A DNA stretch of 31,803 nucleotides from contig VCMS01000435.1 in NCBI GenBank assembly GCA_022539475.1, positions 78,381 through 110,183 of the forward strand, read 5' to 3'. Numbering within the stretch: the first letter of the stretch is position 1; each line of letters begins with the position of its first letter. This document shows positions 1 through 23,300 of the stretch, piece by piece. A model generated the notes under the pieces. It worked only from the letters and a program-made list of their open reading frames with translations, made no database searches and was not told the origin of the DNA. The position numbers were made by a program, and so were the translations under genes. Source of the stretch: Gracilaria domingensis (lineage: Eukaryota; Rhodophyta; Florideophyceae; Gracilariales; Gracilariaceae).

Positions 1-2
1 GT

Positions 3-2366
3 GGTGAGTACTTGTCCAATCGGTTCTCCGAAAAGCTTGAGCAGTACGGTATTGAGCATCAGCGAACTGTGCCTTATAATCCACAGCAGAACGGGCTTGC
101 CGAGAGGTTCAATCGCACACTCATGGACTTGGTCAGGTCAATATTGCATCACAAGAATGTGCCAAAAAGCTTTTGGGCTGAGGCTCTGAATGTTTCTGTG
201 TATGTGCGCAACAGAGTGACCTGCAAAGCGCTTCCGAGTGACGTGACTCCGTTTGAGCTGTGGCATGGACAGAAGCCTGATCTGAGCAATCTGCGTGTGT
301 TTGGTAGCCGTTGCTGGTACAAGGTGGTTGATCACAAGTTGAAGAAGCTGGAAGAGCGTGCAGTGGAAGCCATCTTCATTGGGTACACTTCAGGCTCCCA
401 CGGGTACAAGTTGTGGGACAGCCAGAAGAAGAAGGTGATTGTGTCACGAGATGTGAGGTTTGACGAGTGCTCTGCAACTGAAAGTGACGAGCACTCTGAA
501 CACGAGGACTATGCGGATATCGACTTGGTCGACAAGTCGGTATCTGCTGAAGCCCCAACCTCCGACACATCCGCCGATCATTCTGAAGATGATCCTTCTG
601 CACCAGCTTCTCATGAGAGTACCACGAATGCCAGTACGGATGAAGACACCACACCAGTTCCACAAGATGAGCCGGAAGGGACAGAGACGCAGCCCCTTCG
701 TAGATCCACACGTCAGAGAAAGACGCCATCCTCGTGGTGGCGTGGTGCCAGTGCTTTCCTTACAGCCAGTGATGATACTCCTTCGTCGTACGGTGACGCA
801 GTGTCACGTCCTGATTCCGAAGCTTGGAAGAAGGCGATGAAGAGTGAGTACGAGTCATTGATGGAGCATGACACATGGGATCTAGTGCCAAGGCCAGCAG
901 ACAGCAACGTGATTTCGTCCAAGTGGGTGTATGTACAGAAGTATGAGGCTTCGTCATCTGGTGAACCGACAGTGCGTTACAAGGCTCGTGTAGTTGCAAG
1001 AGGCTTCCTGCAGATCGAGGGTGTGGACTTCTCAGAGACATTTGCACCTGTGGTGAAGTTCACATCCATCAGAATGATCCTGTCAGTGACTGCCGTACGA
1101 GACTTCCACTTGCACCAGATGGATGTGAAGACTGCCTTTCTGAACGGTGACCTTGACGAGACAGTGTACATGGAGCAGCCAATGGGATTCACACAGCAGG
1201 GAAAGGAGGACTTGGTGTGCCGACTGAAGAAAGCGATCTATGGGCTTAGACAAGCACCAAGACAGTGGCACGCCAAGATATACGCCTTCCTTGTTGGTGA
1301 AATGCACCTCAAGCCGAATGACGCAGACGAGTGTGTCTACACCGGGATCATACTGGGTTTCTTGGTTATCATTGCTCTGTATGTTGACGACTTGCTGATT
1401 GCGAGTCCGAGCATGAAAACCGTGGAACGTGTGAAGGCAGAGCTGTCAAGTCGTTTCCGCATGAAGGACCTCAAAGAAGCTCGCATGGTTCTTGGATTTG
1501 AAATCCATCGAGACAGAACCAAGCGAGAGCTGTACTTGACTCAGTCAGCGTACACCAACAAGGTCCTGGAGCGATTTGGCATGCAGCTGTCGAAACCCGT
1601 TGACACTCCTATGGAGTGCGGTGTGGACTTGTCTGTTGAGGAGGAAGTGCTCACGCATGTACCGTATCGTCAGGCGATTGGCTGCCTCATGTATCTGTCT
1701 GTGGGAACTCGTCCAGACATCTCATATGCTGTGGCTAAGCTGGCCAAGTATGTTGAGAAGCCGGGAAACACTCACTGGAAGGCGGTCAAGCGTGTTCTTC
1801 GCTACCTCAATGGCACTACCACGTTCGGGTTGACGTATGGCTCCAGCACCGATTTGCAACTGCACGGCTATGTGGACTCTGACTGGGCTGGCGATGTTGC
1901 CAACCGCAAGTCCACTAGTGGATACTTGTTCATGATGTGCGGTGGTGCTGTGTCGTGGTCTTCTCGTCAACAGGAGGTAGTTGCTCTGTCGAGTGCAGAG
2001 GCTGAGTACGTGAGCTTGTGCTCTGGCACCAAGGAGGCGATCTGGCTTAGGCGACTTTGGAACGGCATTGGCAGTGTGATTGGTATGGAAGCAGACGGGT
2101 CTGTGAAGCTGCTGGTTGAACCCACTCCCATGTATGTTGACAACCAGGGCAGCATTGACCTTGCTCGAAATGGAGTGGTGAACAGGCGAACCAAGCACAT
2201 TGACATTCGGTTCCACTTCACTCGAGAAGCTCTGCAGGCCAAGTCGATTGTGCTGTTCTACTGCCCGACGGATTCCATGGTTGCCGACATGCTGAATAAG
2301 CCACTTGCGCGAGTGAAGCACGAGAAGTTCCGCGAAGCCGGTGGTGTGATCCACATAGAAGTTTGA
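3..2366 (+). CDS. Copia element A1 pol, 5'-truncated by window edge (integrase end, RT, RNase H)
   Basis: This is the C-terminal two thirds of a Ty1/copia polyprotein; the frame is open at the left edge, so the ATG at 12 is internal. It starts at the GEYLSNRF stretch just after the second integrase catalytic Asp. The catalytic Glu follows in NGLAERFNR, and the intact copy A3 shows the exact 35-residue spacing between Asp and Glu. Next come the GYKLWD-type integrase tail, an acidic Ser/Thr/Glu-rich linker (about codons 150-230), and a reverse transcriptase with the copia signature DVKTAFLNGDL and the catalytic YVDD at 1380-1391. RNase H follows (DSDWAGD, SSAEAEY, RRTKHIDIRFHF). The frame has no internal stop and ends 10 bases before the polypurine tract. 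The visible part looks capable of coding for active enzymes; gag, protease and the 5' LTR lie outside the window. Confidence 0.95.
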   Translation, partial: GEYLSNRFSEKLEQYGIEHQRTVPYNPQQNGLAERFNRTLMDLVRSILHHKNVPKSFWAEALNVSVYVRNRVTCKALPSDVTPFELWHGQKPDLSNLRVFGSRCWYKVVDHKLKKLEERAVEAIFIGYTSGSHGYKLWDSQKKKVIVSRDVRFDECSATESDEHSEHEDYADIDLVDKSVSAEAPTSDTSADHSEDDPSAPASHESTTNASTDEDTTPVPQDEPEGTETQPLRRSTRQRKTPSSWWRGASAFLTASDDTPSSYGDAVSRPDSEAWKKAMKSEYESLMEHDTWDLVPRPADSNVISSKWVYVQKYEASSSGEPTVRYKARVVARGFLQIEGVDFSETFAPVVKFTSIRMILSVTAVRDFHLHQMDVKTAFLNGDLDETVYMEQPMGFTQQGKEDLVCRLKKAIYGLRQAPRQWHAKIYAFLVGEMHLKPNDADECVYTGIILGFLVIIALYVDDLLIASPSMKTVERVKAELSSRFRMKDLKEARMVLGFEIHRDRTKRELYLTQSAYTNKVLERFGMQLSKPVDTPMECGVDLSVEEEVLTHVPYRQAIGCLMYLSVGTRPDISYAVAKLAKYVEKPGNTHWKAVKRVLRYLNGTTTFGLTYGSSTDLQLHGYVDSDWAGDVANRKSTSGYLFMMCGGAVSWSSRQQEVVALSSAEAEYVSLCSGTKEAIWLRRLWNGIGSVIGMEADGSVKLLVEPTPMYVDNQGSIDLARNGVVNRRTKHIDIRFHFTREALQAKSIVLFYCPTDSMVADMLNKPLARVKHEKFREAGGVIHIEV

Positions 2367-2376
2367 AGTCAGTGAC

Positions 2377-2386
2377 AGAGGGGGGG
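2377..2386 (+). promoter_or_regulatory. Polypurine tract of element A1
   Basis: An AGAG plus six-G run lies immediately before the 3' LTR (TGTTGG...). In LTR retroelements this purine run survives RNase H and primes plus-strand DNA. The same tract, with the same upstream CAGTGAC, precedes the LTR of A2, and a close variant precedes the LTRs of C1, C2 and C3. Confidence 0.85.
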
Positions 2387-3172
2387 TGTTGGATGTTGAC
2401 CCTGCGCTGTCACTGAAAACCAAAAGTGCTGGGGAGCATGGGCTGTTTTGGAGGGTGCCGTTGGAAAAGCGCATATGCGCCTCTGCGCAAACTCAACGTG
2501 AAACGGGCTTGTGATTGGCTACTGCAAATGGTCATATGCATTGTGGTTGGTACAAGTGTTGTGGCGCTAATGGGTTGTTTCCGGGGTACACGTGTGTAGC
2601 TAGTACACTGGGCATACTGTACATGATGCACAGGGTACACACGTATGTACGTGGACATGTAGGACAGCTTCATGTGACTTTGGCACTATGGTGAAGAGTA
2701 GATGCGCTGTCAAGAGGTTTACACTGTGGTATTGTTGGTGACGTAGGACTTGGAGTGAGTTTGTGGTGACGTGTTAGTTGGTGAGCTTGTACGTAACTGT
2801 TATGGTGGCGTGTACGGATTACAGTGTGTTGGCACTATGTGAATCTGTGCATGGTCATGGTTATGTGTAGGCACGTAACTTGATGTGCACGGTTGTGCAC
2901 TGTTGTGCGTTGTTGTGCTTTGTTGTTGTAAGCTGTCATGATAGTGTGGCAGTGTTACCATGTTATGTTAGAAGATGATTGGTAGTATTGGGTGTCTCTA
3001 GCTAGTGGTTTAGGTATTGCTTGGAGTTGGAGTTGTGCGATGGTTGCGCAAAGTAGTTCTATATAAGCGGTGACTCGAGCACCTCCAAGTAAAATCCGTG
3101 CCAGAGCTGGCGAACTTCCCTTCATTCCCCTATCCCTTCTTCAACCTTCCCTTTCAGCTTCAACCTCTATCA
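2387..3172 (+). repeat. 3' LTR of copia element A1 (786 bp)
   Basis: It starts TGTTGGATG right after the polypurine tract and ends ...CTCTATCA. It is nearly the same as the A2 LTR at 12778-13565. U3 holds the palindrome GCGCATATGCGC (2469-2480) and an ATTGGCTACTGCAAAT block, both shared with the element B LTR. Further on are GTTGTGC-type short repeats (about 2890-2930) and a TATATAA box at 3060-3066. The last ~90 bases (CCAGAGCTGGCGAACTTCCC...) are shared with the C-type LTRs. Sequence after 3172 is interrupted gag of element B, so A1 inserted into B. Confidence 0.9.
3060..3066 (+). promoter_or_regulatory. TATA box in A1 LTR
   Basis: TATATAA followed within ~25 bases by CACCTCCAAGTAAA. The same arrangement is found in every A- and C-type LTR here (13451-13457, 6484-6490, 9848-9854, 20649-20655, 24173-24179, and 15247-15253 on the minus strand). 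The conservation and position suggest the LTR core promoter and define the U3/R border region; the start site itself cannot be seen. Confidence 0.7.
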
Positions 3173-5599
3173 CAGGGATCCTCTGTTGATGCCATTCGCA
3201 CGTTATCCAAACGCGAGAAGGCTTGCAGAATCATCATCTGTGCACTTGGTGATGCTCCTTTACGTGTGGTTATGGACGTGGATGACGATCCGGCAAAGAT
3301 GATCAAGTTGCTGGATGCACGCTATGCTTCGAATCGCACGGTGTCTAGGATTGCTGTTCAGACCCAACTATTCCGTATGACATACAATGGGCAGAACATG
3401 TCCGAATACGTTGACCAATTCACGGCTCTGTTCTCGCAGTTGGATCGTATGGGCAAGGATGCTGCCATTCCTGAGTCTCACAAAGCTCCAATGTTGTTGG
3501 CTTCAATTGATCCGCAGAGCTCACTGGAGTCCACGGCTGCAGCATTACGTACCAAGGAGATCTCTGAGTTAACGTGGGACTATGTTGCTACCACCCTCAT
3601 TGATGAATACAATGCACGTCACATGACTACTGGTCGCAGTCGCAGCCGAAAGAAAGGAAAGGGAAGAGGTTCCAACAAGTCTCATGGTACCTCCTCTATC
3701 ACACATCATCGAGATGGTAATGATTCGGATGATGTTTCTGGCACACATGCACTTGCAGCAGCCAGTGGCAGCGGGTATCACTGTGACTTTTGTGGTCGAG
3801 ATGGACATACCAAAGATCGTTGCTTTGTAAACCCGGACAATCCTGACAACCATCTGCCTCAGAGCATACTCGACAAGTTGGCTTTGAAGGCGAAGGACAA
3901 GTCTGGAGGATCTAAAGCGTCAGCAAAGTCGTCTAGTAAGTCCTCCAAGATAGAGATTGCAGGCATGTCATTTGAGAAAGCGACAGTCCTGCCACCTGCG
4001 CAACGAGAAATGGACACCTATGCAGACAGTGGAGCAACTTCTCATTACTTCCACTCTGCAGCTGCCTTCGTTCCAAGCTCATTGCACGATGTGGAGGAGC
4101 GACACATACGGCTGGCCGACAAGAGTACTGTGTCTGCGACGAAATGTGGAGATGTTATTCTGCCTTTTGACAATGTGAATCTAAGGTTGACTGATGCCCT
4201 ACTCGTGCCTGACATGGAGTACAACCTAGTTTCCGTTGGGAGCCTTGCCGACAAGTCTATTGAGTCTCGGTTCCGTGCACGTGAAGTTCGCTTGATTCAT
4301 GAAAATGGCTTGGTCATCGGGAGCGGTCAGCGCGATAAACGTTCTGGCTTGTATACTTTGCCCGAACCTGTCATGCATTTCGGCGCGGAGCACGCATTAC
4401 TCGCTGGTAAAGCCGATTTGCAGTGCATGTTGAAGGCATCATTACCGGAGTTGACTCAACTATGGCACCGCCGATTGGCTCATATCAACCCGAGAGACCT
4501 TCAAATGGTGCACAAGCATGCCAGTGGTGTCCCACAGCTCACAGAAATGAGGGAGGTGTGTCACCCTTGTCGTCTTGGGAAAGCACACAAACTTCCATTT
4601 CCTGGAGTATTTACTCGTGAATCCGAGGTTGGTGACACTGTGCACTCCGACATAATAGGTCCACTCACCCTGTCCTTCCCTGACCGATTCAAGTACGCAT
4701 CAGCATTTGTGGATGATCACTCGCGTTATGTCATGGTAGGGTTCATGAAACACCGCAGTGAAATCAATGATGTGTATGATGGAGTGGCGCAGAAGCTCAA
4801 GCAGCTTGGAGGAGCTGTGGTGAAGAAGGTACACTCTGATGATGCAAAGGAGTACATAGCTCTGCAGGAGAATCCGGAGAACTCCTTCGACGATACATCT
4901 TTCTCTGCCCCATACACTCCGGAACATAACGCCATTGCCGAGCGCATCAACCGTACCATGGAAGAAGCTGCTCGAGCTTTGCTCATTCAAGCAAATCTAC
5001 CAGAGTGCTTGTGGCCTTTCGCACTCAAACATGTTCTACATGTGCGTAACCGTGTACCCCACTCTACAACTGGGAGTACGCCGTTCTTGTTGTTGACTGG
5101 AAACAAACCAACGTTGAAGCACACTCGCGTGTTCGGTTGTTCCGCATTCGTTTTGAAGATGACTGGTGGAACCAAGTTCGAGTCTCGTGCACTTGAGGGG
5201 GTGTACTTGGAGACTCTTGAGCATGGTGTCTACGACATTCTTGTTGCTGGCGATGATGGACTGCCGTGCATCATGCGTTCCCGTCATGTGACATTTGACG
5301 AAGATTCATTCCCCGGTGCAGAGTACTTGGAGGAGTACATGGAGGATGAAAGCGCATCTGATACCGACTTCACCGATTCAGAGTCTCACAGCACCGAAGA
5401 TGTCTCCAGTACAGATCGGAATGTACTTGATGAGGTCTCTATTGATGATATAACTGATGCTGACGATCATTCTCCAGAAGAAAGTGCACCTGATGCAGAA
5501 GTCGTTGAAGCTGCACCAAGTGTCCAGTCAAATGATAATGACTCTGGTGCTGACGAGAGTGAAGATGATGGCTCCAGCGACTCCGATATGGACGATGAC
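3173..5599 (+). pseudogene. Element B gag-pol, 5' portion (gag, protease, integrase), split by C1
   Basis: The open frame actually runs from 3098 inside the A1 LTR to 5623 inside C1, but only 3173-5599 belongs to B. Gag is UBN2-like and lacks an estimated 50-60 N-terminal residues. A CCHC zinc knuckle (CDFCGRDGHTKDRC, Cys codon at 3782) follows a basic stretch. The aspartic protease active site is DSGAT (Asp codon at 4025). The integrase zinc finger is HRRLAH...CHPC. The integrase core has D in HSDIIGP, D in HSDDAKEY and E in AIAERINR. The end is an acidic Ser/Asp linker. Removing C1 and one ATGAC copy leaves the frame continuous with 9949 onward, so B was open here when C1 inserted. The missing gag start and the later frameshift make B non-functional. 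Confidence 0.9.
5595..5599. repeat. Target-site duplication of C1, left copy
   Basis: ATGAC directly before the TGTTGG start of the C1 5' LTR. The same five bases follow the 3' LTR at 9944-9948. Five base pairs is the usual copia integrase stagger. Confidence 0.93.
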
Positions 5600-6579
5600 T
5601 GTTGGAAGTCATGCTGTCACTGACATCAAGCAGCTGAGATGTGTGAAGTCTAGAATGGTACTTTGCTATGTGAAAGCGAGATTGATGTTGTTCTGTTTGG
5701 TATACTATGTTGCTGTGTGGTGTACTCAGTATGGGTTGAACGTTTACGGCTACATTGGAATGCTGTCGTTCAGCTGGAATGACCACAAAATACAACGATG
5801 ACAGGTGGTACAGTGGTCATGGAATACAGGTTGCAAGGCTATGTATATGAACACATGGTACAGGTTGCAGCACTGTCAGTGTTGTGAAGTTTACACCATG
5901 TTTGAGTTGTGCTACATGCAAATGTGTGTGTATGGATGAATGGAACATGTTGCAGCTGAGTGACTGACGTCATCTGGTTTACAGGTACTTGTTGGTGATG
6001 TGGGACTTGGGTGTCTGGCACGTATACATTACGGTGTCGTGTACATCCGTACAGGATTACAGCGTGCAAGCAACACGTGAAGTGTTGTGTCATGTTCCGT
6101 AAGCATGTCTGGTCATAATGGTGAGGTGTTGCATTGTGTGTATGCATGGTCGCGTTGCTATGGTCTGCTGTCATATTGTTGACTGCATTGATGTGTGGTG
6201 CTTGTGGTCTGCTGTCGAAATGTGTCGGTACACTGTCAGGGACGTGCATGGCTACTACATTGGTGTGCATTGTTGTGCATTGTTGTGCACTGCTGTGCAG
6301 TGGTGTACGGAATTGTTGTGCACTGTTGTGCACTGTTGTGCGTTGTTGTGCACTGCTGTTGTAAGCAGTTTGGCACTGTTACCATGTTATATCCGTACAT
6401 GATTGGTAGTATTGAGTGTCTCTGGTAAGTGAGTTGCATGTTGGTCAGAGTTAGAGTCGCATGATGGAGTAGCGAAGAAGTGCTATATAAGTTGTGACTC
6501 AAGCACCTCCAAGTAAATCTGAGCCAGAGCTGGCGAACTTCCCTTCATTCCCCCATCCTTTCAGCTTCAACCTCTATCA
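5600..6579 (+). repeat. C1 5' LTR (980 bp)
   Basis: It runs from TGTTGGAAGTC to ...CTCTATCA. A tract of GTTGTGCA/GTTGTGCACT repeats lies at about 6265-6365, a TATATAA box at 6484-6490, and then a terminal region shared with element A LTRs. Antisense frames of up to 164 codons in the LTR are low-complexity His/Thr/Gln-rich and have no coding signal. Confidence 0.93.
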
Positions 6580-6596
6580 GGTTATGGGCCCAGCCC
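6580..6596 (+). promoter_or_regulatory. Primer-binding site of C1, complementary to the initiator tRNA-Met anticodon arm
   Basis: GGTTATGGGCCCAGCCC directly abuts the LTR end. GGTTATGGGCCCAGC is the complement of the eukaryotic initiator tRNA-Met anticodon stem-loop, including the CAU anticodon; the usual tRNA 3'-end complement (TGGTATCAGAGC-like) is absent. Drosophila copia is known to prime from a tRNA-iMet fragment cut in this arm, so the same mechanism is inferred here. The identical site occurs in C2 at 20767-20783. Confidence 0.88.
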
Positions 6597-7717
6597 CTCT
6601 GACCTCTGCCGTTTGTCGTTCGTCATGAGGTTTCCCTTTCCGCCGCTCTCCCTCACCGCCGTCCGTGTTGTTGAACGCCGTTGTTGATGTTTTCGATGTT
6701 TTTTTCTCCGTCGTGTTTCTTGTCATTGACCGGTTTGGTGGTGTTGTATTTCCCTTTTGGTTTGCGTTCCTCCTTGAGGGCGTTGTGGTGGTAGTGGTTC
6801 GACGCTGTTCTACTTTCGTGATTCTGTTTGGTTTCTAGTTCATTTTCGTTTTCGTCGATCGCTATCCGCTTTGTTGGTTTCTCGCCTCTGTTTTCGTTGT
6901 TGTGATCCCCGTGTCGTGTTTGCGGGTTCTGATCCGAGGGGTTGAGTACCGTTGTCGTTGAAGTCTGTGCACTTGTGTGTTGTGCTCAGCATTCGTTTTT
7001 TCGTTGAAGTCCGGGCACTGCCTGTGTGCTCGGCATTTGTGGTGATCACTTGGGTTTCGGTGCGACGAGTGGTTGATCCGAGCAATCGGGGACGTTAGTC
7101 TGGCGGCTTGAACCAATGCGGAAGCGCTGTCGAGCGGGCTCCCATCGGTCCTTCGGGGCAGATAACGGTGTCGGTCGGAAGACCTGGTAGTACCGCGAGT
7201 GCTGAAGTTGACGGGGTGCCGTGACGTACTGCATCGAACAGGGGTGGTTCACCTTTGTTGTGTGTGACCTGACTGTGTGTTGGGTTCTTGATCTGTTGGG
7301 AAGACAAACTGAAACGAGCTTTTGATCCGTACTGCTGCGGTGGTGCGGGGAGGCGACGTGTCGTAGGCTGACCTCCTTTTCAGGATCAGGCCGCTTGTGA
7401 ACTTTATTGTTTGCTTGCTGGAAGCGTACCTCGGTTTGTCATAGTACCTGCAGTATCAGGGTCGCGCAAGTTCTTGCAAGAGACCAGAGAGGGTTTAACT
7501 TGGTGAAGGCATATCTTTGGTCACTAACCATCCTCTGGACGTCTCGTAGAGAGCGACGCGCCTTCTCCTGGAACGCAGGAGGAGGTAGACAGAAGAAAGT
7601 CGTTTCCTACCCGGAGGGTCTCCGGGGGTCAGGGGTCCGACTCCCTAGGGTACCAGGAATCTTAGTTCCTTATGCACCCGATCGCTTGCAGTTCGTTGTT
7701 GTTATTCTCGCTACAGT
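6597..7717 (+). other. C1 5' leader, non-coding, with hairpins
   Basis: No credible gene. Simple hairpins can be seen: CTCCTG/CAGGAG (7565-7570 with 7576-7581) and CCCGGAG/CTCCGGG around a GGT loop (7610-7626). A 132-codon frame at 7407-7805 is also open in C2, but it lacks an ATG and matches no family. The leader is nearly identical in C2 (20784-21904). Confidence 0.6.
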
Positions 7718-8499
7718 TCAGGAGGTGGAGTGTTTCCTGCCTGAGACTGTGTGTGTGAGATTCGTTTATGACACTTCCTGGGTGTTTGTTGTTGAACATG
7801 TCTGAGCTCTTCTTTGTATCAACTTTGGAAAGTTGCGATGTTACTTGTCCGTTGTTATCGTGACTTCCTTACGCAGGCTCAGAAGGTTGTCGTTATGTAT
7901 GCCCGGGATGTGTGCTGTGCTCTTCGCTTTACTTATGTTGTACCGGAAGGTTGCTATTTGTTTGCATGTCCGGTGTGTATTGAAGAGCTGTTTGCCTCAG
8001 GAGGTTGAGTGTTTCATGCCTGAGTGTTTGTTTCATTGCTTGTGATGTTTGTTTTGCTCTTTGTTTCAGTTTGTTGTCACTGGAAGTTTGCTATGTGTTT
8101 GCATGTCCGGTGTAAATGAAAGAGCTAATTGACTCAGGAGGTTGAGTGTTTCACGCCTGAGTGTGTAGTACATCACTTTGTAGGAACGGAGCCTGGAAGG
8201 TTGTCATTTGGCAAGTCCAGGATGCCTGTGTTGCAATTCTCTTTGTGTGTTATTCGCGGAAGGTCGCTGTGATTTTGCATGTCCGCTGTTTGAAGAGATT
8301 CTTGAGCTGGAAGGTTGCTCTCTTTTGCATGTCCAGCTGTTACGAAGGTGATGTTGAGCTGGAAGGTTGCTACTTGTTGCATGTCCGGTGTTCAGAAAAT
8401 CGGTCTTGAACCAGAAGGTTGCGTGTGTTTGCATGTCTGGTTGAAGTACTGTGATTAGTGGTGCTCCGAGAGCTTGTTATGTGTTACATGCTCGGAGCA
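7718..8499 (+). ncRNA. Array of 11 covarying stem-loops in the C1 interior
   Basis: Each unit reads: outer stem (5-9 bp), AGGT, inner 3-bp stem, 5-9-nt loop, inner stem return, TG, outer stem return. Unit starts: 7718, 7942, 7996, 8078, 8132, 8192, 8256, 8305, 8358, 8409 and 8462. Outer stems vary but still pair: ACCGGA/TCCGGT, ACTCAGG/CCTGAGT, CCTGGA/TCCAGG, AGCTGGA/TCCAGCT, AACCAGA/TCTGGTT, TGCTCCGAG/CTCGGAGCA. Inner stems also covary: TGC/GCA, TGA/TCA, GGA/TCC, TGT/ACA. The units at 8256 and 8358 are weaker (one inner mismatch; wobble pairs). A borderline further hairpin (TCTAGA/TCTAGA) lies at 8516-8546. I know of no named RNA family with this shape. A role in packaging, dimerisation or protein binding of the element RNA is inference. 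Confidence 0.75.
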
Positions 8500-8953
8500 A
8501 CATTTGTTTTCGGTGTCTAGAATGTGGTCACTTGTGGACGTCTAGATCCCTTTTGTGAAGGACTCTGAGGTGCATTTTGGTTCCGAGAGAAGTTCAAAGT
8601 CAGTGAGAGAGGAAGGATGTCAGAGTAACATCATCAGACTTCGGCTCTCACTGTCTGTTGTTGATATCTGTTTGAACCGGAAGCTGTTGCCTTCGTTGCC
8701 ATACGAAGGATGAGTAAGAAGTTCAGAGTGTGTGACAAAAGGAGGGTGTTTCCAGAACATCCGAATCGTACAGAACAGAACTATGATCTTGGTATACTGG
8801 TAGAACGGTACACCCGTGGACTTGGACACACACTAACTGCACTTGATGGTTGACATTGTCAGGTTTCAGTGCAGTACCGATGTGTTCCTCACCACCCATC
8901 GTGTTACTTTGCATGTGCTTGGCCTGCAGCGCTGGTTGCTTGAAGTCAGTAAC
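8500..8953 (+). other. C1 3' interior, non-coding
   Basis: No gene recognised. It contains AGTCAGTGAGAGAGGAAGGA-type purine stretches near 8600, resembling the element's own polypurine region (AGTCAGTAACAGAGGGAGGG), so it may be an internal decoy or a relic of an earlier LTR junction. Its last ~80 bases differ from C2 more than the LTRs do. Confidence 0.5.
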
Positions 8954-8963
8954 AGAGGGAGGG
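8954..8963 (+). promoter_or_regulatory. Polypurine tract of C1
   Basis: AGAGGGAGGG directly precedes the 3' LTR. With its upstream context (GAAGTCAGTAAC) it closely resembles the A1/A2 tracts, as expected if the same RT/RNase H recognises both. Confidence 0.88.
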
Positions 8964-9943
8964 TGTTGGAAGTCATGCTGTCACTGACATCAAGCAGCTG
9001 AGATGTGTGAAGTCTAGAATGGTACTTTGCTATGTGAAAGCGAGATTGATGTTGTTCTGTTTGGTATACTATGTTGCTGTGTGGTGTACTCAGTATGGGT
9101 TGAACGTTTACGGCTACATTGGAATGCTGTCGTTCAGCTGGAATGACCACAAAATACAACGATGACAGGTGGTACAGTGGTCATGGAATACAGGTTGCAA
9201 GGCTATGTATATGAACACATGGTACAGGTTGCAGCACTGTCAGTGTTGTGAAGTTTACACCATGTTTGAGTTGTGCTACATGCAAATGTGTGTGTATGGA
9301 TGAATGGAACATGTTGCAGCTGAGTGACTGACGTCATCTGGTTTACAGGTACTTGTTGGTGATGTGGGACTTGGGTGTCTGGCACGTATACATTACGGTG
9401 TCGTGTACATCCGTACAGGATTACAGCGTGCAAGCAACACGTGAAGTGTTGTGTCATGTTCCGTAAGCATGTCTGGTCATAATGGTGAGGTGTTGCATTG
9501 TGTGTATGCATGGTCGCGTTGCTATGGTCTGCTGTCATATTGTTGACTGCATTGATGTGTGGTGCTTGTGGTCTGCTGTCGAAATGTGTCGGTACACTGT
9601 CAGGGACGTGCATGGCTACTACATTGGTGTGCATTGTTGTGCATTGTTGTGCACTGCTGTGCAGTGGTGTACGGAATTGTTGTGCACTGTTGTGCACTGT
9701 TGTGCGTTGTTGTGCACTGCTGTTGTAAGCAGTTTGGCACTGTTACCATGTTATATCCGTACATGATTGGTAGTATTGAGTGTCTCTGGTAAGTGAGTTG
9801 CATGTTGGTCAGAGTTAGAGTCGCATGATGGAGTAGCGAAGAAGTGCTATATAAGTTGTGACTCAAGCACCTCCAAGTAAATCTGAGCCAGAGCTGGCGA
9901 ACTTCCCTTCATTCCCCCATCCTTTCAGCTTCAACCTCTATCA
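8964..9943 (+). repeat. C1 3' LTR (980 bp)
   Basis: Same length and same sequence as 5600-6579 (offset 3364) wherever compared, ending ...CTCTATCA. It is followed by the ATGAC duplication at 9944-9948 and then by element B pol in frame. Confidence 0.93.
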
Positions 9944-9948
9944 ATGAC
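9944..9948. repeat. Target-site duplication of C1, right copy
   Basis: ATGAC, identical to 5595-5599. Confidence 0.93.
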
Positions 9949-11665
9949 ACCGATCAAGCCACTACTGTGCAGCAAGATGAGTCTGTACAGCAGGAGTCAC
10001 GCAACCCACAGCGCACTCGTCGTGCACCTCGCAGGTGGTTCATGGCTGGTTCCGCAACCCCAGCTGGAGTCCAGGTCACCACGAGTGATGAACCAACACT
10101 CAAGGAAGCAAGGTCCGCAACGCCTACGGAACAGAGCTTGTGGCGTGCTGCTATTGAGGAAGAGCTGGCATCTCTTGAGTCGAAGAAAACCTGGAAGGTT
10201 GACCAGTCCCCAGCTCAGCAACCACTTCCCACACATATCATTCTCAAAGTTAAACGTAATGCGGATGGGTCTGTGGATCGCTTCAAGGCTCGAGTTGTCG
10301 CTGGTGGTAATCACCAAACCTTCGGGGAGAACTACATGGACACATATGCTCCAGTGGTTTCATTTAGTTTGGTGCGGTTCTTCCTCTACCTGACGCTGTG
10401 CTTGCAGATGTTTGTGGCACAAGTCGATGTGAAGACTGCCTTCCTCAATGGCGACCTCGAGGAGGATGTGTGGGTCATGTCACCGCGTGGTGTTCCTGGT
10501 CTTGGTTCACGCTGCTACAAGCTTCAGAAAGCCATGTATGGAATTGAAGCAAGCCCATCTAGCATGGCATACCAAGTTCACACGTGATCTACACTCCATT
10601 GGTTTCCAAGAACTACCGAGTGCCCCATGCGTGTTTCGGAGGGCTAGCGAGCATAATGGATACTGCTATATCCTTGTGTACGTCGATGACTTGCTCATCT
10701 TCACGCCCTCTGCCAAGGAACGATCTGGGATCTTGGAGGAGCTCAAGCGATTGTACGAGATTCGCGTTGAGAACAAAGTGACCCTCTACCTCGGTGTAGA
10801 GTTGACATGGAGCATTAATGACGATGGTCGTGTCACTGGAGTGCACCTTGGTCAGACACTCTACATCGAAGGAATTCTGCGACGTTTCGGTCTGGACAAC
10901 TCTAAGCCGGCTCGTAGTCCAATGGTGGAGTCATTCTTCTCGGGTCTCGCGGCCGAGGAAGACAAGTCACCCCAGGATGTGCAGCGGTACCAGCAGATGA
11001 TCGGGTCTCTGCTGTACTTGGCACTGCGCACGCGCGTGGACATTCTGGCTCCGGTGCTCATCCCCGCTCGTTTCCAGAGCAACCCCACGGCATACTGTCA
11101 CAGGGCCGCCAAACGAGTGTTGCGTTACCTGCAAGGAACTCGCAGACATGGCTTGAACTACAAGGCTGGATCCCTGGACATGCAAGCGTATGTGGACTCG
11201 GACTTCGCCGGTGACACCTGCGATCGCAAGTCCATGTCTGGTTACATGATCAAGTTCGGATCTGCGGTGGTGTTCTTCGGTGCCAAGAAGCAGTCGTCTG
11301 TTGCTTTGTCTACTGCTGAGGCTGAGTACTACGCGTTAACCATGGCTGCTCAGGAGGTTGTGTGGATGAGGCGTGTACTCTCTGAGATTGGTCTGGATAG
11401 TTCCGGGGCTGTTCCTATGCACTCTGACAATCAGATTGCCATTGGCTGGAGTGCAGGTGAGCGGTGCCCATCTGGTCGTGCGAAGCATATTGATGTCAAG
11501 ATGCACTTCATTAGGGAACTGGTAAAGGAGTCTGTCATTGTGGTGCTGTATGTCCCAAGTAAGTTGAATGACTCGGACATACTCACAAAGCCTCTAGGTC
11601 CTCTCGACGCCCAGGCCATTATGAAAAGGATTGGTCTTGGACAGGAACTCGAGGAGGAGTGTTGA
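9949..11665 (+). pseudogene. Element B pol, 3' portion (RT and RNase H) with a frameshift
   Basis: This continues the B polyprotein after the C1 insertion. The first frame (to 10587) has the copia RT start, with RAPRRW, FKARVVAGG and DVKTAFLNGDL. At about 10543 one extra base appears in the conserved MYGLKQA-type motif: the first frame then reads MYGIEAS and soon stops, while the next frame resumes with LKQAHLAWHTKF and runs to 11665. The second frame has the catalytic YVDD (10679-10690), RNase H motifs DSDFAGD and STAEAEYYAL, and a KHIDVKMHFIREL tail. The frameshift is inside the RT domain, where copia elements are not known to shift, so it is an inactivating mutation. The C-terminal codons overlap the start of the LTR at 11660. 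Confidence 0.9.
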
Positions 11666-12351
11666 TGTTTGGATGGTATCGAGTGCCTGGCAGTCCTTGA
11701 ATTTGTCTCCAAGTACCTGGAACACAAAGTTGCAGGGGAGCATGGGCACTTTTGGGCACCCTCGCGCGAAAAGCGCATATGCGCCTCTCCGTAAACCCAA
11801 CGTGATACTGCAATATGATTGGCTACTGCAAATGCGTATATGCAACGTAGTGTGGACAAGTGGACCTGGCTGTATGGGGCAGGAGTGGCGGATGGCACAA
11901 GTGGTGCGCTGTGATTGGCTGAAGTGTGCTAGTGCTGGCCAGTTATGCAGTAGCTGAGAATGTGCGAATACAGGCTGTTCTGGGCGGGTTTTGCTTTATG
12001 TGCGATTCTGAGCTGCGCGAGGGGGTTTGTTGCGCCAGATGGAAAATGTTGATTTTTTAGAGCGATTTTGGATCATGGAGTTGGCATTGGATTTGGCGCG
12101 GTTTGATTTAGTTGTTTCGAATTCGTATTGTGATTTGCGCGCGCTTTCGTTGTCAAGGTGTACACTTTGACAGCGTGTGCTGTTATGTCTCATGCAGCGA
12201 CGGCGGCGGTGCGCGGTTAGTACTAGTAGGTTGCGATCGTCCCCGTTCACTAAACTCGGTCGAAGGTGGCCTACCCCCTTTGCTTGTCTTACCTATCTTG
12301 TTCACATCTTTTTTCTTTCTACTTGTCTAACCTGCGTTCGTTACGTTAGTC
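11660..12351 (+). repeat. Probable 3' LTR of element B (right end unresolved)
   Basis: It starts TGTTGATG after the purine run GAGGAGGAG (11651-11659). It contains the GCGCATATGCGC palindrome (11773-11784), a GGGGAGCATGGGC box and GATTGGCTACTGCAAATGC, all shared with the A LTR U3, which supports LTR identity. No clear TATA box or CA terminus is visible. The stretch from about 11990 to 12351 is A/T- then pyrimidine-rich and unexplained. At 12352 the sequence becomes A2 pol; the TCAACA at 12357-12362 belongs to A2. Confidence 0.65.
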
Positions 12352-12757
12352 GTCTCGTCAACAGGAGGTAGTTGCTGTGTCGAGTGCAGAGGCTGAGTAC
12401 GTGAGCTTGTGCTCTGGCACCAAGGAGGCGATCTGGCTTAAGCGACTTTGGAACGGCATTGGCAGTGTGATTGGCATGGAAGCAGACGGGTCTGTAAAGC
12501 TGCTGGTTGAACCAACTCCCATGTATGTTGACAACCAGGGCAGCATTGACCTTGCTCGAAATGGAGTGGTGAACAGGCGAACCAAGCATATTGAAATTCG
12601 GTTCCACTTCACTCGAGAAGCTCTGCAGGCCAAGTCGATTGTGCTGTTCTACTGCCCGACGGATTCCATGGTTGCCGACATGCTGAATAAGCCGCTTGCG
12701 CGAGTGAAGCACGAGAGGTTCCGCGAAGCCGGTGGTGTGAACCACATAGAAGTTTGA
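12352..12757 (+). pseudogene. Copia element A2, RNase H remnant
   Basis: Codes for the last ~134 residues of an A-type polyprotein: RQQEVVAVSSAEAEY, then the NQGSIDLARNGVVNRRTKHIEIRFHF tail. It differs from A1 at only a few residues (for example HIEI for HIDI, VNHIEV for VIHIEV). Everything upstream is missing at the junction with element B. The frame ends just before the polypurine tract, as in A1. Confidence 0.9.
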
Positions 12758-12767
12758 AGTCAGTGAC

Positions 12768-12777
12768 AGAGGGGGGG
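12768..12777 (+). promoter_or_regulatory. Polypurine tract of A2
   Basis: AGAG plus six G directly before TGTTGGATG, identical to the tract in A1. Confidence 0.85.
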
Positions 12778-13565
12778 TGTTGGATGTTGACCCTGTGCTG
12801 TCACTGAAAACCAAAAGTGCTGGGGAGCATGGGCTGTTTTGGAGGGTGCCGTTGGAAAAGCGCATATGCGCCTCTGCGCAAACTCAACGTGAAACGGGCT
12901 TCTGATTGGCTACTGCAAATGGTCATATGCATTGTGGTTCGTACAAGTGTTGTGACGCTAATGGGTTGTTTCCAGGGTACACGTGTGTAGCTAATACATT
13001 GGGCATGCTGTACATGATGCACAGGGTACACACGTATGTACGTGGACATGTAGGACAGCTTGATGTGACTTCGGCACTATGGTGAAGAGTAGATGCGCTG
13101 TCAAGAGGTTTACACTGTGGTATTGTTGGTGACGTAGGACTTGGAGTGAGTTTGTGGTGAAGTGTTGTTGGTGAGCTTGTACGTAACTGTTATGGTGTCG
13201 TGTAGGGATTACAGTGTGTTGTCACTATGTGAATCTGTGCATGGTCATGATTATGTGTAGGCACGTAACTTGATGTGCACGGTTGTGCACTGTTGTGCGT
13301 TGTTGTGCTTTGTTGTTGTAAGCTGCCATGATAGTGTGGGAGTGTTACCATGTTATGTTAGAAGATGATTGGTAGTATTGAGTGTCTCTAGCTAGTGGTT
13401 TAGGTATTGCTTGGAGTTGGAGTTGTGCGATGGTTGCGCAAAGTAGTTCTATATAAGCGGTGACTCGAGCGCCTCCAAGTAAATTCCGAGCCAGAGCTGG
13501 CGAACTTCCCTTCATTTCCCCCATCCTTTCTCTCAACCTTCCCTTTCCAGCTATAACCTCCATCA
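12778..13565 (+). repeat. 3' LTR of copia element A2 (788 bp)
   Basis: Nearly identical to the A1 LTR over most of its length (GCGCATATGCGC at 12860-12871; TATATAA at 13451-13457). Its final ~85 bases (CTCTCAACCTTCC, CCAGCTATAACCTCCATCA) match the end of the inverted C3 LTR better than the end of the A1 LTR. The next bases (CACCAGATGACG) are inverted A3 pol. Confidence 0.88.
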
Positions 13566-15137
13566 CACCAGATGACGAAGCCTCATACTTCTGCACATAC
13601 ACCCACTTGGACGAAATCACGTTGCTGTCTGCTGGCCTTGGCACTAGATCCCACGTGTCGTGCTCCATCAACGATTGATACTCACTCTTCATCGCCTTCT
13701 TCCAAGCTTCGGAATCAGGACGTGACACTGCGTCACCGTACAACGAAGGAGTATCATCACTGGCTGTAAGGAAAGCACTGGCACCACGCCACCATGAGGA
13801 TGTCGTCTTTCTCTGACGTGTGGATCTACGAAGAAGATGCGTCTCTGTCACTCCCGGCTCATCATGTGTGTCTGGTGTGGTGTTCTCATCCGTACTGGCA
13901 TTCGTGGTTCTCTCGTGAGAAGCTGGCGCAGAAGGGTCATCTTCAGAATCATCGGTGGATGTGTCAGAGGTTGAGGCTTCAGCAGCTCCCGACTTGTCGA
14001 CCAAATCGATATCCGCGTAGTCCTCGTGTTCAGAGTGCTCGTCACTTTCAGTTGCAGAGCACTCGTCAAACCTCACATCTCGTGACACAATCACCTTCTT
14101 CTTCTGGCTGTCCCACAACTTGTATCCGTGGGAGCCTGAAGTGTACCCAATGAAGATGGCTTCCACTGCACGCTCTTCCAGCTTCTTCAAATTCAAATCA
14201 ACCACCTTGTACCAGCAACGGCTACCAAACACACGCAGATTGCTCAGATCAGGCTTCTGTCCATGCCACAGCTCAAACGGAGTCACGTCACTCGGAAGCG
14301 CTTTGCAGGTCACTGTGTTGCGCACATACACAGAAACATTCAGAGCCTCAGCCCAAAAGCTTTTTGGCACATTCTTGTGATGCAACATCGACCTGACCAA
14401 GTCCATGAGTGTGCGATTGAACCTCTCGGCAAGCCCGTTTCGCTGTGGATTGTAAGGCACAGTTCGCTGATGCTCAATACCGTACTGCTGCAGTTTCTCG
14501 GAGAATCGATTGGACAGGTACTCACCACCGTTGTCTGTGCGCAAAGCACGCAGCACACTTTTACGAGCGGTGATGGTAAGCACCTTCCTGCCCATCTGGT
14601 TCTCCACAAACCTAAGCCACTTGATGAACATCCGGAACACCTCATCCTTCGTCTTGAGCATGTACAGAAAGCAATAACGGCTGTGGTCATCGATGAATGT
14701 GACAAAGTAGTGCGAGCCTCCCAAGGACTTCACGTTCACTGGACCCGAAATATCAGAGTGTACCAGGTCCAGTACGTGTTCAGCTCGTTCCCCCCCTTGC
14801 TTGGGAGTCGGAGCACGGGTTGCTTTGCCCACTACACATGAGCCACACACATCCACCTTCTGAGCCACATCCACATTCAGACCTGACACAACGCCATTTC
14901 GAGCCATCTGCTTGATGCCTTCCACATTCACATGAGCCATTCGACATGCCAAAGAGACAAGTCTGACACAAGCGCACTGTCCGTGTCCGTGAGCTGTTCT
15001 GCAGCAGTGCAAAGGTAGTACAGGTCTTTGACGCGTCGCCCGACGGCAACTACTTTTGACCCCTTGTACACACATACCTTTTCTTTGTCAAACACTACCG
15101 TGCAGCCCAGATCACATATCTGCGACCCAGACAACAA
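13566..15137 (-). pseudogene. Copia element A3 pol fragment, inverted (protease-integrase spacer, integrase, RT start)
   Basis: An internal piece of an A-type polyprotein on the minus strand, cut at both ends by LTRs. From 15137 leftward it holds the post-protease region (SGSQICDLGCTVVFDKEK), the integrase zinc finger (CGSC, with its His part damaged) and the full integrase core: D in HSDISGP, D in RTDNGGEY and E in NGLAERFNR, with 35 residues between the last two. Then come the acidic linker and the RT start up to KYEASSSG. One base is missing near 14945 inside LWHV(R)MAHVN, so the region before it (frame 14928-15137) and after it (frame to 13566) are in different frames. Very close to A1 where they overlap. 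Confidence 0.9.
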
Positions 15138-16128
15138 TGATGGAGGTTATAGCTGGAAAGGGAAGGTTGAGAGAAAGGACGGGGGGAATGAAGGGAAGTT
15201 CGCCAGCTCTGGCTCGGAATTGACTTGGCGGTGCTTGAGTCACAACTTATATAGCACTTCTTCGCTACTCCATCATGCGACTCCAACTCTGACCAACATG
15301 CAACTCACTAACCAGAGACACTCAATACTACCAATCATCTACGGACATAACATGGTAACAGTGCCAAACTGCTTACAACAGCAGCGCACAACAACGCACA
15401 ACAGTGTACAACAGTGCACAACAATTCCGTACACCACTGCACAGCAGTGCACAACAATGCACAACAATGCACACCAATGTAGTAGCCATGCACGTCCCTG
15501 ACAGTGTACCGACACATTTCGACAGCAGACCACAAACACCACACATCAATGCAGTCAACAATATGAAAGTACACCATAGTAACACGACCATGCATACACA
15601 TAATGCAACACCTCACCATCATGACCAGCCGTGCTTACGGAACATGACACCACACTTCACGTGTTGCTTGCACGCTGTAATCCGTACACGACACCGTAAT
15701 GTGTACGTGCCAGGTACCCAAGTCCCACATCATCAACAAGTACCTGTAAACGAGATGACGTCAGTCACTCAGCTGCAACATGCTCCATTCATCCATACAA
15801 ACACATGTGCATGTAGCACAACCCAAACATGATGTAGACTTCACAACACTGACAGTGCTGCAACCTGTACCATGTGTTCACATACATAGCCTTGCAACCT
15901 GTACTCCATGACCACTGTACAACCTGTCATCGATGTACCTTGTGGTCATCCCAGCTGAACGAAAGCATTCCAATGTAGCCGTAAACGTTCAACCCATACT
16001 GAGTATACCACACAGAAACATAGTATAGCAAACAGAACAACATCAATCTCGCTTTCACATAGCAAGTTACCATTCTAGAATTCACACATCCCAGCTGCTT
16101 GATGTCAGTGACAGCATGACTTCCAACA
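15138..16128 (-). repeat. C3: inverted 3' LTR of a C-type element (991 bp)
   Basis: Read on the minus strand it starts TGTTGGAAGTCATGC (16128 leftward), holds the GTTGTGC repeats and TATATAA (15247-15253), and ends CCAGCTATAACCTCCATCA at 15138. It is related to the C1 and C2 LTRs but carries many substitutions, so it is an older copy. No primer-binding site follows its inner end, which identifies it as a 3' LTR flanked by A3. Confidence 0.88.
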
Positions 16129-16200
16129 CCCTCCCTCTGTTACTGACTTCAAGCAACCAGCGCTCCTGGCCAAGTACATGCTGAGTCACAGGTCGGGCAG
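16129..16200 (-). mobile_element. Remnant of C3 interior with polypurine tract
   Basis: Minus-strand AGAGGGAGGG (16129-16138) is preceded by CTTGAAGTCAGTAAC and then by the last ~50 interior bases (GCATGTACTTGGCCAGGAGCGCTGG), matching C2 near 23240-23290. The rest of C3 is gone at the junction with the transposase relic. Confidence 0.8.
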
Positions 16201-19776: not shown

Positions 19777-20766
19777 TGTTGGAAGTCATGCTGTCACTGA
19801 CATCAAGCAGTTGAGATGTGTGGAGTGTAGAATGGCACCTTGATATATGAAACCGAGATTGATATTGTTCTGTTTGGTATACTACGTTGCTATGTGGTAT
19901 ACTCAGTATGGGTTGAACCTTTATGTCTACAATGGAATGCTGTCGTTCAGCTAGGATGACCACAAGGTACAACGATGACAGGTTGCACAGTGGTCATGGA
20001 GTACAGGTTGCAAGGCCATGTATGTGAACGCATGGTACAGGTTGCAGCACTGTCAGTGTTGTGAAGTGTACATCATGTCTGGGTTGTGCTACATGCACAT
20101 GTGTGTGTATGGATGAATGGAACATGTTGCAGCTGAGTGACTGGTCATCTGGTTTACAGGTACTTGTTGATGATGTGGGACTTGGGTGTCTGGCACGTAT
20201 ACATTACGGTGTCGTGTACATCCGTACAGGATTACAGCGTGCAAGCAACACGTGAAGTGTTGTGTCATGTTCCGTAAGCATGTCTGGTCATAATGGTGAG
20301 GTGTTGCATTGTGTGTATGCATGGTCGCGTTGCTATGGTCTGCTGTCATATTGTTGACTGCATTGATGTGTGGTGCTCGCGGTGTGCTGTCGAAATGTGT
20401 CGGTACACTGTCAGGGACGTGTATGGCTACTACATTGTTGTGCATTGTTGTGCACTGCTGTGCAGTAGTGTACGGAATTGTTGTGCACTCTTGTACACTG
20501 TTGTGCGTTGTTGTGCACTGCTGTTGTAAGCAGTTTGACACTGTTACCATGTTATGTCGGTAGATGATTGGTAGTATTGAGTGTCTCTGGTTAGTGAGTT
20601 GCATGTTGGTCAGAGTTGGAATCGCATGATGGAGTAGCGAAGAAGTGCTATATAAGTTGTGACTCAAGCACCTCCAAATAAATCTGAGCTAGAGCTGGCG
20701 AACTTCCCTTGCATCCCCCCATCCTTCCTCATGTCAACTTTCCGATCCCAGCTATAACCTCTAACA
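19777..20766 (+). repeat. C2 5' LTR (990 bp)
   Basis: It runs from TGTTGGAAGTC to ...CTCTAACA, with GTTGTGC repeats at about 20435-20525 and TATATAA at 20649-20655. Unlike the other LTRs it has a canonical AATAAA at 20677-20682 where they have AAGTAAA. Its last ~40 bases differ from C1 (CTCATGTCAACTTTCCGATCC). Confidence 0.92.
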
Positions 20767-20783
20767 GGTTATGGGCCCAGCCC
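20767..20783 (+). promoter_or_regulatory. Primer-binding site of C2 (initiator tRNA-Met anticodon arm)
   Basis: GGTTATGGGCCCAGCCC, identical to the C1 site and again directly after the LTR. Conservation next to a diverged LTR end supports function. Confidence 0.88.
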
Positions 20784-21904
20784 TGCTGACCTCTGCCGTT
20801 TGTCGTTCGTCTTGAGGTTTCCCTTTCCGCCGCTCTCCCTCACCGCCGACCGTGTTGTTGAACGCCGTTGTTGATGTTTTCGATGGTTGTTTGCCGTCGT
20901 GTTTCTTTTCGTTGACTGGTTTGGTGGTGTTGTATTTCCCTTTTGGTTTGCGTTCCTCCCTGAGGGCGTTGTGGTGGTAGTGGTTCGACGTTGTTCTACT
21001 TTCGTGATTCTGCTTGGTTTCTCGTTCATTTTCGTTTTCGTCGATCGCTATCCGCTGTTGTTGGTTTCTCGCCTCTGTTTTCGTTGTTGTGATCCCCGTG
21101 TCGTGTTTGCGGGTTCTGATCCGAGGGGTTGAGTACCGTTGTCGTTGAAGTCTGTGCACTTGTGTGTTGTGCTCAGCATTCGTTTTTTCGTTGAAGTCCG
21201 GGAACTGCCTGTGTGCTCGGCATTTGTGGTGATCACTTGAGTTTCGGTGCGACGAGCGGTTGATCCGAGCAATCGGGGACGTTAGTCTGGCGGCTTGAAC
21301 CAATGCGGAAGCGCTGTCGAGCGGGCTCCCATCGGTCCTTCGGGGCAGATAACGGTGTCGGTCGGAAGACCTGGTAGTACCGCGAGTGCTGAAGTTGACG
21401 GGGTGCCGTGACGTACTGCATCGAACAGGGGTGGTTCACCTTTTTTGTGTATGACCTGACTGTGTGTTGGGTTCTTGATCTGTTGGGAAGACAAACTGAA
21501 ACGAGCTTTTGATCCGTAATGCTGCGGTGGTGCGGGGAGGCGACGTGTCGTAGGCTGACCTCCTTTTCAGGATCAGGCCGCTTGTGAACTTGATTGTTTG
21601 CTTGCTGGAAGCGTACCTCGGTTTGTCATAGTACCTGCAGTATCAGGGTCGCGCAGGTTCTTGCAAGAGACCAGAGAGGGTTTAACTTGGTGAAGGCATA
21701 TCTTTGGTCACTAACCATCCTCTGGACGTCTCGTAGAGAGCGACGCGCCTTCTCCTGGAACGCAGGAGGAGGTAGACAGAAGAAAGTCGTTTCCTACCCG
21801 GAGGGTCTCCGGGGGTCAGGGGTCCGACTCCCTAGGGTACCAGGAATCTTAGTTCCTTATGCACCCGATCGCTTGCAGTTCGTTGTTGTTATGCTCGCTA
21901 CAGT
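20784..21904 (+). other. C2 5' leader, non-coding
   Basis: Nearly identical to C1 6597-7717, including the CCCGGAG/CTCCGGG hairpin. Minus-strand frames here (up to 180 codons) are Arg/Thr/Gln-rich, start in noncoding context and include the primer-binding-site complement, so they are not genes. Confidence 0.6.
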
Positions 21905-22822
21905 TCAGGAGGTGGAGTGTTTCCTGCCTGAGACTGTGTGTGTGAGATTCGTTTATGCCACTTCCTGGGTGTTTGTTGTTGAACATGTCTGAGCTCTTCT
22001 TTGTATCAACTTTGGAAAGTTGCGATGTTACTTGTCCGTTGTTATCGTGACTTCCTTACGCAGGCTCAGAAGGTTGTCGTTATGTATGCCCGGGATGTGT
22101 GCTGTGCTCTTCGCTTTACTTATGTTGTACCGGAAGGTTGCTATTTGGTTGCATGTCCGGTGTGTATGGAAGAGCTGTTTGACTCAGGAGGCTGAGTGTT
22201 TCATGCCTGAGTGTATTATTGATCACTTGTGATGTGTGTTTTGCTCTCCATGTTGTTCTCATGTTTCCAGAAGGTTGTTACATGTATGCATGTCTGGGTT
22301 ATGGAAGAGCTGTTCGATTCAGGAGGTTGAGTGTTTCATGCCTGAGTGTTTGTTTCATTGCTTGTGATGTTTGTTTTGCTCTTTGTTTCAGTTTGTTGTC
22401 ACTGGAAGTTTGCTATGTGTTTGCATGTCCGGTGTGAATGAAAGAGCTAATTGACTCAGGAGGTTGAGTGTTTCATGCCTGAGTGTGTAGGACATCACTT
22501 TGTAGGGACGGGGCCTGGAAGGTTGTCATTTTGAAAGTCCAGGATGCCTGTGTTGCAATTCTCTTTGTGTGTTATTCGCGGAAGGTTGCTGTGATTTTGT
22601 ATGTCCGCTCTTTGAAGAGATTTGTTGAGCTGGAAGGTTGCTCTCTTTTGCATGTCCAGCTGTTACGAAGGTGATGTTGAATTGGAAGGTTGCTACTTGT
22701 TGCATGCCCGGTGTTAAGAAAATCGGTCTTGAACCAGAAGGTTGCGTGTGTTTGCATGTCTGGTTGAAGTAATGTGATTAGTGGTGCTCCGAGAGGTTGT
22801 TATGTGTTACATGCTCGAAGCA
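21905..22822 (+). ncRNA. Array of 12-13 covarying stem-loops in the C2 interior
   Basis: Same unit design as in C1. Unit starts: 21905, 22129, 22182, 22267, 22319, 22400, 22454, 22514, 22578, 22628, 22732 and 22785, with a decayed unit near 22681. Units 22267 (CCAGA/TCTGG) and 22319 (TCAGG/CCTGA) have no counterpart in C1, so the array changes copy number. Some differences from C1 keep pairing (inner TGC/GTA at 22578); others weaken it (inner TGT/AAA at 22514; one mismatch in the outer stem at 22785). Confidence 0.72.
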
Positions 22823-23290: not shown

Positions 23291-23300
23291 AGAGAGAGGG
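23291..23300 (+). promoter_or_regulatory. Polypurine tract of C2
   Basis: AGAGAGAGGG directly before the 3' LTR. Confidence 0.85.

Follow-up and report, generated by a model that had tools for sequence, protein, structure and literature searches.

The window, by which we mean the whole 31,803-bp stretch of Gracilaria domingensis DNA that was analysed, consists of nested mobile elements over positions 1-16200. It contains two copies, C1 and C2, of an element designated C, and also sequences of an autonomous copia element designated A. The features of C1 and the position of C2 are as follows.

5600-6579 (+): C1 5' LTR, 980 bp, identical at 980/980 positions to 8964-9943
8964-9943 (+): C1 3' LTR, differing from the 5' LTR at 0/980 sites
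5595-5599 and 9944-9948 (+): the two copies of the C1 target-site duplication ATGAC, read at the element ends
6580-6594 (+): C1 primer binding site GGTTATGGGCCCAGC, immediately 3' of the LTR
6580-7681 (+): C1 leader, common to autonomous copia A, 78-84% identical to loci L054, L056 and L057
8940-8963 (+): C1 purine-rich tract 5' of the 3' LTR, matching 2363-2386 over 24 bp at 92%, common to copia A
19777-24290 (+): C2, the second element copy in the window, with LTRs at 19777-20766 and 23301-24290 and the duplication GTAAC

C1 has a total length of 4,344 bp (5600-9943), and C elements have LTRs of 980-990 bp around an interior of about 2.4-2.5 kb. The LTR pair of C2 differs at 0/990 sites, and since the paired LTRs of both copies are identical, C1 and C2 were taken as recent insertions. 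Paired LTRs, 5-bp duplications, a primer site and a polypurine tract are all present, which identifies C1 and C2 as LTR retrotransposons; both are young and non-autonomous. The primer-site pattern AGGTTATGGGCCCAGC was found at 184 places genome-wide and at none in the reversed control; we take the primer binding site of C to resemble the anticodon region of tRNA-iMet. When ORFs of at least 120 aa were examined, a single plus-strand ORF was found to touch the C1 interior (132 aa, 7407-7805), which gave no Pfam match at E<=0.1, and a blastn comparison of the coding parts of A with the C1 interior returned no match except the leader and the purine tract. The interior of the element looks non-coding, as the original prediction had held.

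C1 sits in the coding region of a further copia element, the gag and integrase domains of which are in ORF 3098-5623 and the reverse transcriptase in ORF 10448-11665. An LTR of A ends at 3172, before the gag of this host element, and a reversed C-type LTR, joined to some 60 bp of C interior, is found at about 15173-16128.

A and C have in common, besides the leader, about 260 bp near the 3' end of the LTR (79%), the last 23 bp of the LTR, the purine tract and the primer site. In A (L054, L056 and L057) the leader is followed by a gag ORF, and the hairpin array of C stands where A has gag-pol. Two copies of this gag were scanned: Retrotran_gag_2, Pol_BBD and gag-pre-integrase matched each of them, and zf-CCHC exceeded its curated cut-off in one. 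Copies of A gag are abundant, with at least 152 matches (150 scored of 347 candidates), several of them in long open frames; among 120 listed relatives of the A pol protein, the first with a named organism was from Chondrus crispus, at 45% identity. C looks like a derivative that would move with the A machinery and that carries a hairpin domain in the gag-pol position, and the shared cis-sequences are circumstantial evidence that A may mobilise C.

The leader of C (window 6585-7700) is better conserved than either the array or the start of the LTR. It was 96-100% identical over 40 scored matches, the copy of C1 itself included, as against 91-98% for the array in the 39 leading rows besides C1 and 91-98% for the first 361 LTR bases, again besides C1. 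The leader may hold a packaging or translation signal common to the two elements.

Leader matches ending at the window equivalent of 7642, on contigs C10 and C447, were considered as a partner element and rejected, being in fact an antisense copia A insertion: in L052 and L053, A lies antisense in the C leader with the same junction at 7642 on two contigs, reflecting either one insertion that was later duplicated or a preferred site. L055, the fourth primer-site locus sampled, contained neither a match to the window nor an A or C leader and appeared copia-like by eye only. On contig C117, five primer sites and four gag matches recur between about 182155 and 198205 every 4,009 bases or so, a regularity which suggests a head-to-tail array of units derived from copia A.

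The hairpin arrays of the two copies, and the units of the C1 array, were located as listed here.

7717-8496 (+): C1 hairpin array, 11 clear units (motif scan, covariation, covariance model)
7717-7745 (+): unit a, inner pair type GGA/TCC (motif scan, covariance model)
7777-7806 (+): degenerate unit b, with TGTT replacing AGGT, mapped in 17/21 copies
7876-7909 (+): weak unit d, covariance model 19.2 bits, E 0.0036
7942-7974 (+): unit e, TGC type, with an enclosing helix of 7919-7925 with 7982-7988
7996-8024 (+): TGA-type unit, best match being class h of C2 (covariance model, class mapping)
8079-8111 (+): unit i, TGC type, with an enclosing helix of 8056-8062 with 8119-8125
8133-8161 (+): unit j, TGA type (covariance model, class mapping)
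8192-8221 (+): unit k, TGT/GCA (covariance model, class mapping)
8255-8287 (+): unit l, with an enclosing helix of 8238-8244 with 8292-8298
8306-8337 (+): unit m, TGC type (covariance model, class mapping)
8358-8389 (+): unit n, TGC type (covariance model, class mapping)
8410-8441 (+): unit o, TGC type (covariance model, class mapping)
8465-8496 (+): unit p, TGT/ACA (covariance model, class mapping)
8516-8546 (+): possible degenerate unit with TCTAGA arms, seen by eye, its inner stem poor in C1 and better paired in other copies
21904-22819 (+): C2 hairpin array, 13 clear units (motif scan, covariance model)

The original prediction had described eleven stem-loops of one layout in C1, and all eleven were recovered, the first beginning one base earlier than proposed, at 7717. 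In the layout (outer stem, AGGT, three-pair inner stem, loop, inner return, TG, outer return), AGGT is present in 9 of the 11 units, with AGTT at 8079 and AGCT at 8465, and TG likewise in 9 of 11, with CG at 8133 and AG at 8192. The four inner-stem types that had been named (TGC/GCA, TGA/TCA, GGA/TCC and TGT/ACA) all occur in C1, together with TGT/GCA and CGC/GCA. C1 seems to hold two or three extra degenerate units, at 7777, at 7876-7909 and perhaps at 8516-8546. The array as a whole is a mixture of TGC/TGT-type hairpins, some of them within a larger stem, with shorter TGA-type hairpins, and part of it grew as a unit of roughly 137 bp was duplicated.

Detection of the units was compared with 100 dinucleotide shuffles of 7718-8499. 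Motif scoring gave 9 units at a cut of 9.5 (shuffle mean 0.77, maximum 3) and 11 at a cut of 8.5 (mean 3.12, maximum 7), while a score based on pairing only gave 8 units at a cut of 8.0 (mean 0.25, maximum 2) and, at a loose cut of 6.5, a weak excess of 9 over a mean of 4.17 (maximum 9). A covariance model recovered its 24 training units and one weak unit per copy (7876 and 22063), and at E<=1 it found nothing outside these C1 and C2 units in the 31.8-kb window. Among the 59 distinct rows selected by this model, an inner pair was G-C in 58. Folding of 7700-8560 was better than in 20/20 shuffles (z -3.07).

The 24 units of the window, of which 20 are distinct, were aligned by sequence and provided 200 stem cells. 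Nearly all stems pair, as had been predicted, with 93.0% of these cells paired. Changes on both sides of a pair were seen in 53 cells of the window units, as against 2-7 with slid partners, and in 9 of 10 pairs over both helices; the covariation score was 0.721, compared with 0.294 for shuffled and at most 0.141 for slid pairings. Further pair types among the same units were not above the shuffles (20 vs 18.9, with 171/500 as high). In a larger set of 59 distinct rows, obtained from the best 150 of 226 covariance-model hits at 18 loci, 95.4% of 590 cells pair, a figure that is weaker evidence because it was the model that selected and aligned these rows, and because the locus pairs L015/L043 and L018/L046 overlap.

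Copies of the array elsewhere in the genome were collected by several searches, one of which scored 40 of 61 candidates, and 21 copies, two from the window and 19 from elsewhere, were analysed as 274 unit rows assigned by sequence to 15 classes. The 135 class-majority pairs comprised 118 Watson-Crick, 12 G-U, 3 A-C and 2 other pairs, and this excess of G-U over A-C (12 to 3, p 0.035) is as expected for a sense-strand RNA. Within-class shared variants were balanced, with 5 G-U and 2 compensated against 5 A-C and 2 other, and changes seen once comprised 17 G-U, 19 A-C, 29 other, 4 gaps and 2 non-pairing doubles. Variability across copies was 4.3% in the spacer, 4.6% in the flank, 3.7% in the loop, 3.6% in the outer stem, 3.3% in AGGT/TG and 2.5% in the inner stem. 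At least 8 of 9 pairs were retained in 227/274 unit rows.

The phylogenetic background was then taken into account using 134 distinct units from 257 rows (class b excluded). A per-pair test modelled on R-scape, with 40 simulated alignments and no rows removed for gaps, found no pair significant alone, the best stem pair having an E of 3.8; stem pairs made up 8 of the 18 top-scoring among 595 column pairs. An aggregate, pairing-aware test of the 134 units against a tree-based null (500 simulations) gave 0.891 paired against a null of 0.582 (maximum 0.754) and 8 compensatory branch changes against 1.07 (maximum 4), each with 0/500 as high. When the stem columns were left out in building the tree, 42 compensatory changes were counted against 4.1 (maximum 11), again with 0/500. 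Neither a deficit of stem-breaking changes over the whole tree (66 vs 54.7) nor an excess of Watson-Crick types (14 vs 11.1, 60/500 as high) was found relative to the null.

These mixed results were explained by splitting the branches (9 pairs, mean of 50 reconstructions), inserted copies having decayed while moving lineages kept the fold. On internal, shared branches 28.1 changes keep pairing (20.9 single, 7.2 double), 14.0 break it and 6.5 restore it, whereas at tips, where changes are seen once, 15.5 keep, 41.1 break and 4.3 restore, compensatory doubles being absent (Fisher test on rounded counts, p about 0.0001-0.0002). Since the shared-branch changes keep pairing, we read the failure of the per-pair test and the near-neutral single changes as low power and decay after insertion. 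The pattern fits selection on the fold while the element moved, followed by decay once it had inserted, and the RNA fold seems to have been maintained by selection.

The original prediction had held that compensation at two helices shows the fold to be selected, had looked to R-scape for significant covarying pairs and had counted stem decay in wider copies against itself. Its central claim stands in the both-side changes and in the tree-based null (0/500). It does not stand at the level of single pairs, none of which passes (E 3.8 or more); decay is indeed seen in the once-seen changes, which break pairs near-neutrally, and is set against the shared branches, where 28.1 changes keep pairing and 14.0 break it.

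A further helix, absent from the original prediction, encloses units e, g, i and l, no unit of C1 having been mapped to class g. Over 9 distinct arm sets, 62/63 of its cells pair, the remaining cell being a gap. It has 5 both-side cells against 0.97 when shuffled, with 1/1000 as high, in a test that is not independent because the helix was picked after the sequences had been viewed.

Searches with DNA patterns over the 77.9-Mb assembly placed the two main unit types at 192 and 203 places, compared with 1 and 0 for the reversed control. A looser hairpin pattern gave 200 matches in the whole genome against 4 in the reversed control, and among the 100 of these that were listed at least four were isolated places outside element C (contigs C2, C41, C115 at 125208, and C162). 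Such places are close to chance, and with so few near-identical hairpins beyond C the genome shows no evident host target that has this sequence. Rfam gave 0 matches at the gathering threshold over the whole window and 0 at E<=1 over 6580-8963, in keeping with the original prediction, which knew of no described RNA family with this shape. Viral contigs of a public collection contained no array; eight had a single pattern match each, and one viral contig, L062, had one weak partial match to the model (E 0.02). The exact TGA-type unit had 0 matches in public genome contigs of bacteria and archaea.

We consider it probable that C elements are helper-dependent, non-autonomous copia-type elements in which a putative multivalent protein-docking RNA domain replaces gag-pol. 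The array itself is most likely such a docking domain. In place of the gag-pol of A, the element carries a sense-strand RNA domain made up of a dozen or so hairpins. In each of them the outer stem varies, an asymmetric internal loop (AGGU opposite UG) is constant, and a short inner stem ends in a loop. The constancy of the internal loop and of the nearly fixed first two inner pairs, on stems that are interchangeable, suggests that each hairpin presents a single binding surface and that the array would act by multivalency, docking several copies of an RNA-binding protein. We infer both that a protein binds the array and which protein this may be. The docked protein would help C RNA into helper particles, or into export or stability. 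The leader that C has in common with A is the better candidate for a common packaging signal, and the array is an addition by C. The fuller proposal, that C evolved the array in the gag-pol position and that by recruiting Gag or a host factor it lets a non-coding RNA out-compete its helper, is put forward tentatively, as somewhat less than an even chance.

As the ligand of the docking domain, the zinc-knuckle Gag of the helper and a host factor appear about equally likely, although each of the two specific proposals, taken by itself, is rather unlikely. In the first, each hairpin binds the Gag of copia A, and C competes with A RNA for particles. In favour of this, the elements have the leader, primer site and purine tract in common; the A Gag has a zf-CCHC match, several A copies have long open frames, and an unpaired G in an internal loop suits zinc knuckles. 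Packaging signals of retroviruses and LTR elements contain hairpins with exposed G residues possibly read by Gag and usually lie in the leader, whereas the array of C is 1.1 kb further downstream than the primer site and no counterpart was found in the likely helper. If Gag had evolved to read such a site, A should carry it too, yet the hairpin model had no match in L054, L056 and L057 at E<=5, or in L052, L053 and the A parts of the window at E<=1, these being pieces of different A copies scanned with a sequence-level model that a diverged form would escape. Because the A sequences scanned show no such hairpin, it is unlikely that A and C share the array as a packaging signal, and the original suggestion of a packaging signal for helper Gag is to that extent unsupported. 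It is possible that the Gag of A is recruited by a putative site that A itself lacks.

In the second proposal, a host RNA-binding protein reads the array as an element for export, stability or localisation, which replaces the help that an ordinary mRNA receives from translation. Its absence from A would be unsurprising for a site serving a non-coding RNA, and it repeats a constant internal loop on variable stems. Retroviral transport elements of the CTE/RTE type work likewise, their repeated internal loops on stems being read by protein in support of non-coding or unspliced RNA; the array of C resembles them in this repetition, its putative function follows by analogy only, and it differs in having no Rfam match. 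Against this proposal, the genome showed no clear excess of near-identical hairpins outside C.

It is improbable that the structure acts as RNA alone, through compaction, dimerisation or escape from silencing or decay and with no specific protein, since the local folding that beats 20/20 shuffles would serve such a role but a physical role needs neither the constant AGGU/UG loop nor the nearly fixed inner pair. Least probable is that the array is filler whose matched stem changes arose without selection, by quasipalindrome correction or template switching, to which reverse transcription is prone, for although the once-seen changes look neutral, copying of arms should heal the internal loop too, yet AGGT/TG remains unpaired, G-U is preferred over A-C among the class majorities, shared branches keep pairing through single as well as double changes, and the enclosing helix shows the same pattern. 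A palindrome at the DNA level was judged less likely, since G-U pairs are in excess and the internal loop is constant and stays unpaired.

The docking-domain reading can be set beside known non-coding elements. Non-coding LTR elements are common, and to our knowledge what keeps their interiors is mostly unknown; one class of them, the LARDs, are probably larger than the 4.3-kb C1. Passages of PMC7215508 describe LARDs (e.g. Sukkula of grasses) as having LTRs and an internal domain without protein, with assumed trans-complementation, and as specifying well-conserved RNA secondary structures. As far as these passages go, C is alike in its LTRs, non-coding interior (for ORFs of at least 120 aa) and conserved RNA structure, the last seen in aggregate and not significant per pair. 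C differs in that its structure repeats a single hairpin type in tandem, the internal loop being constant and the compensation having been measured, and in that a likely helper with a common leader is present in the genome. TRIMs, according to the same passages (PMC7215508), are likewise non-coding, non-autonomous LTR elements, but their LTRs are short and their internal domain is all but missing, unlike the LTRs and interior of C. No description of such a hairpin array was found in the open-access papers searched.

Were the docking-domain reading true, the array would represent a new RNA family, and C a genomic parasite that has gained an RNA-encoded rather than a protein-encoded advantage. 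The array offers a repeated unit that is discrete and shows compensatory change. The question of what gives a non-coding element its mobility is directly testable here, because the likely helper and the parasite are in one genome and the part belonging to the parasite only is clearly bounded.

Beyond the C elements, an 843-aa ORF at 25866-28397 matches the Plavaka transposase family, and an 822-aa ORF at 28394-30862 (-), with no Pfam match, adjoins a SET-domain ORF at 31041-31802 (-).
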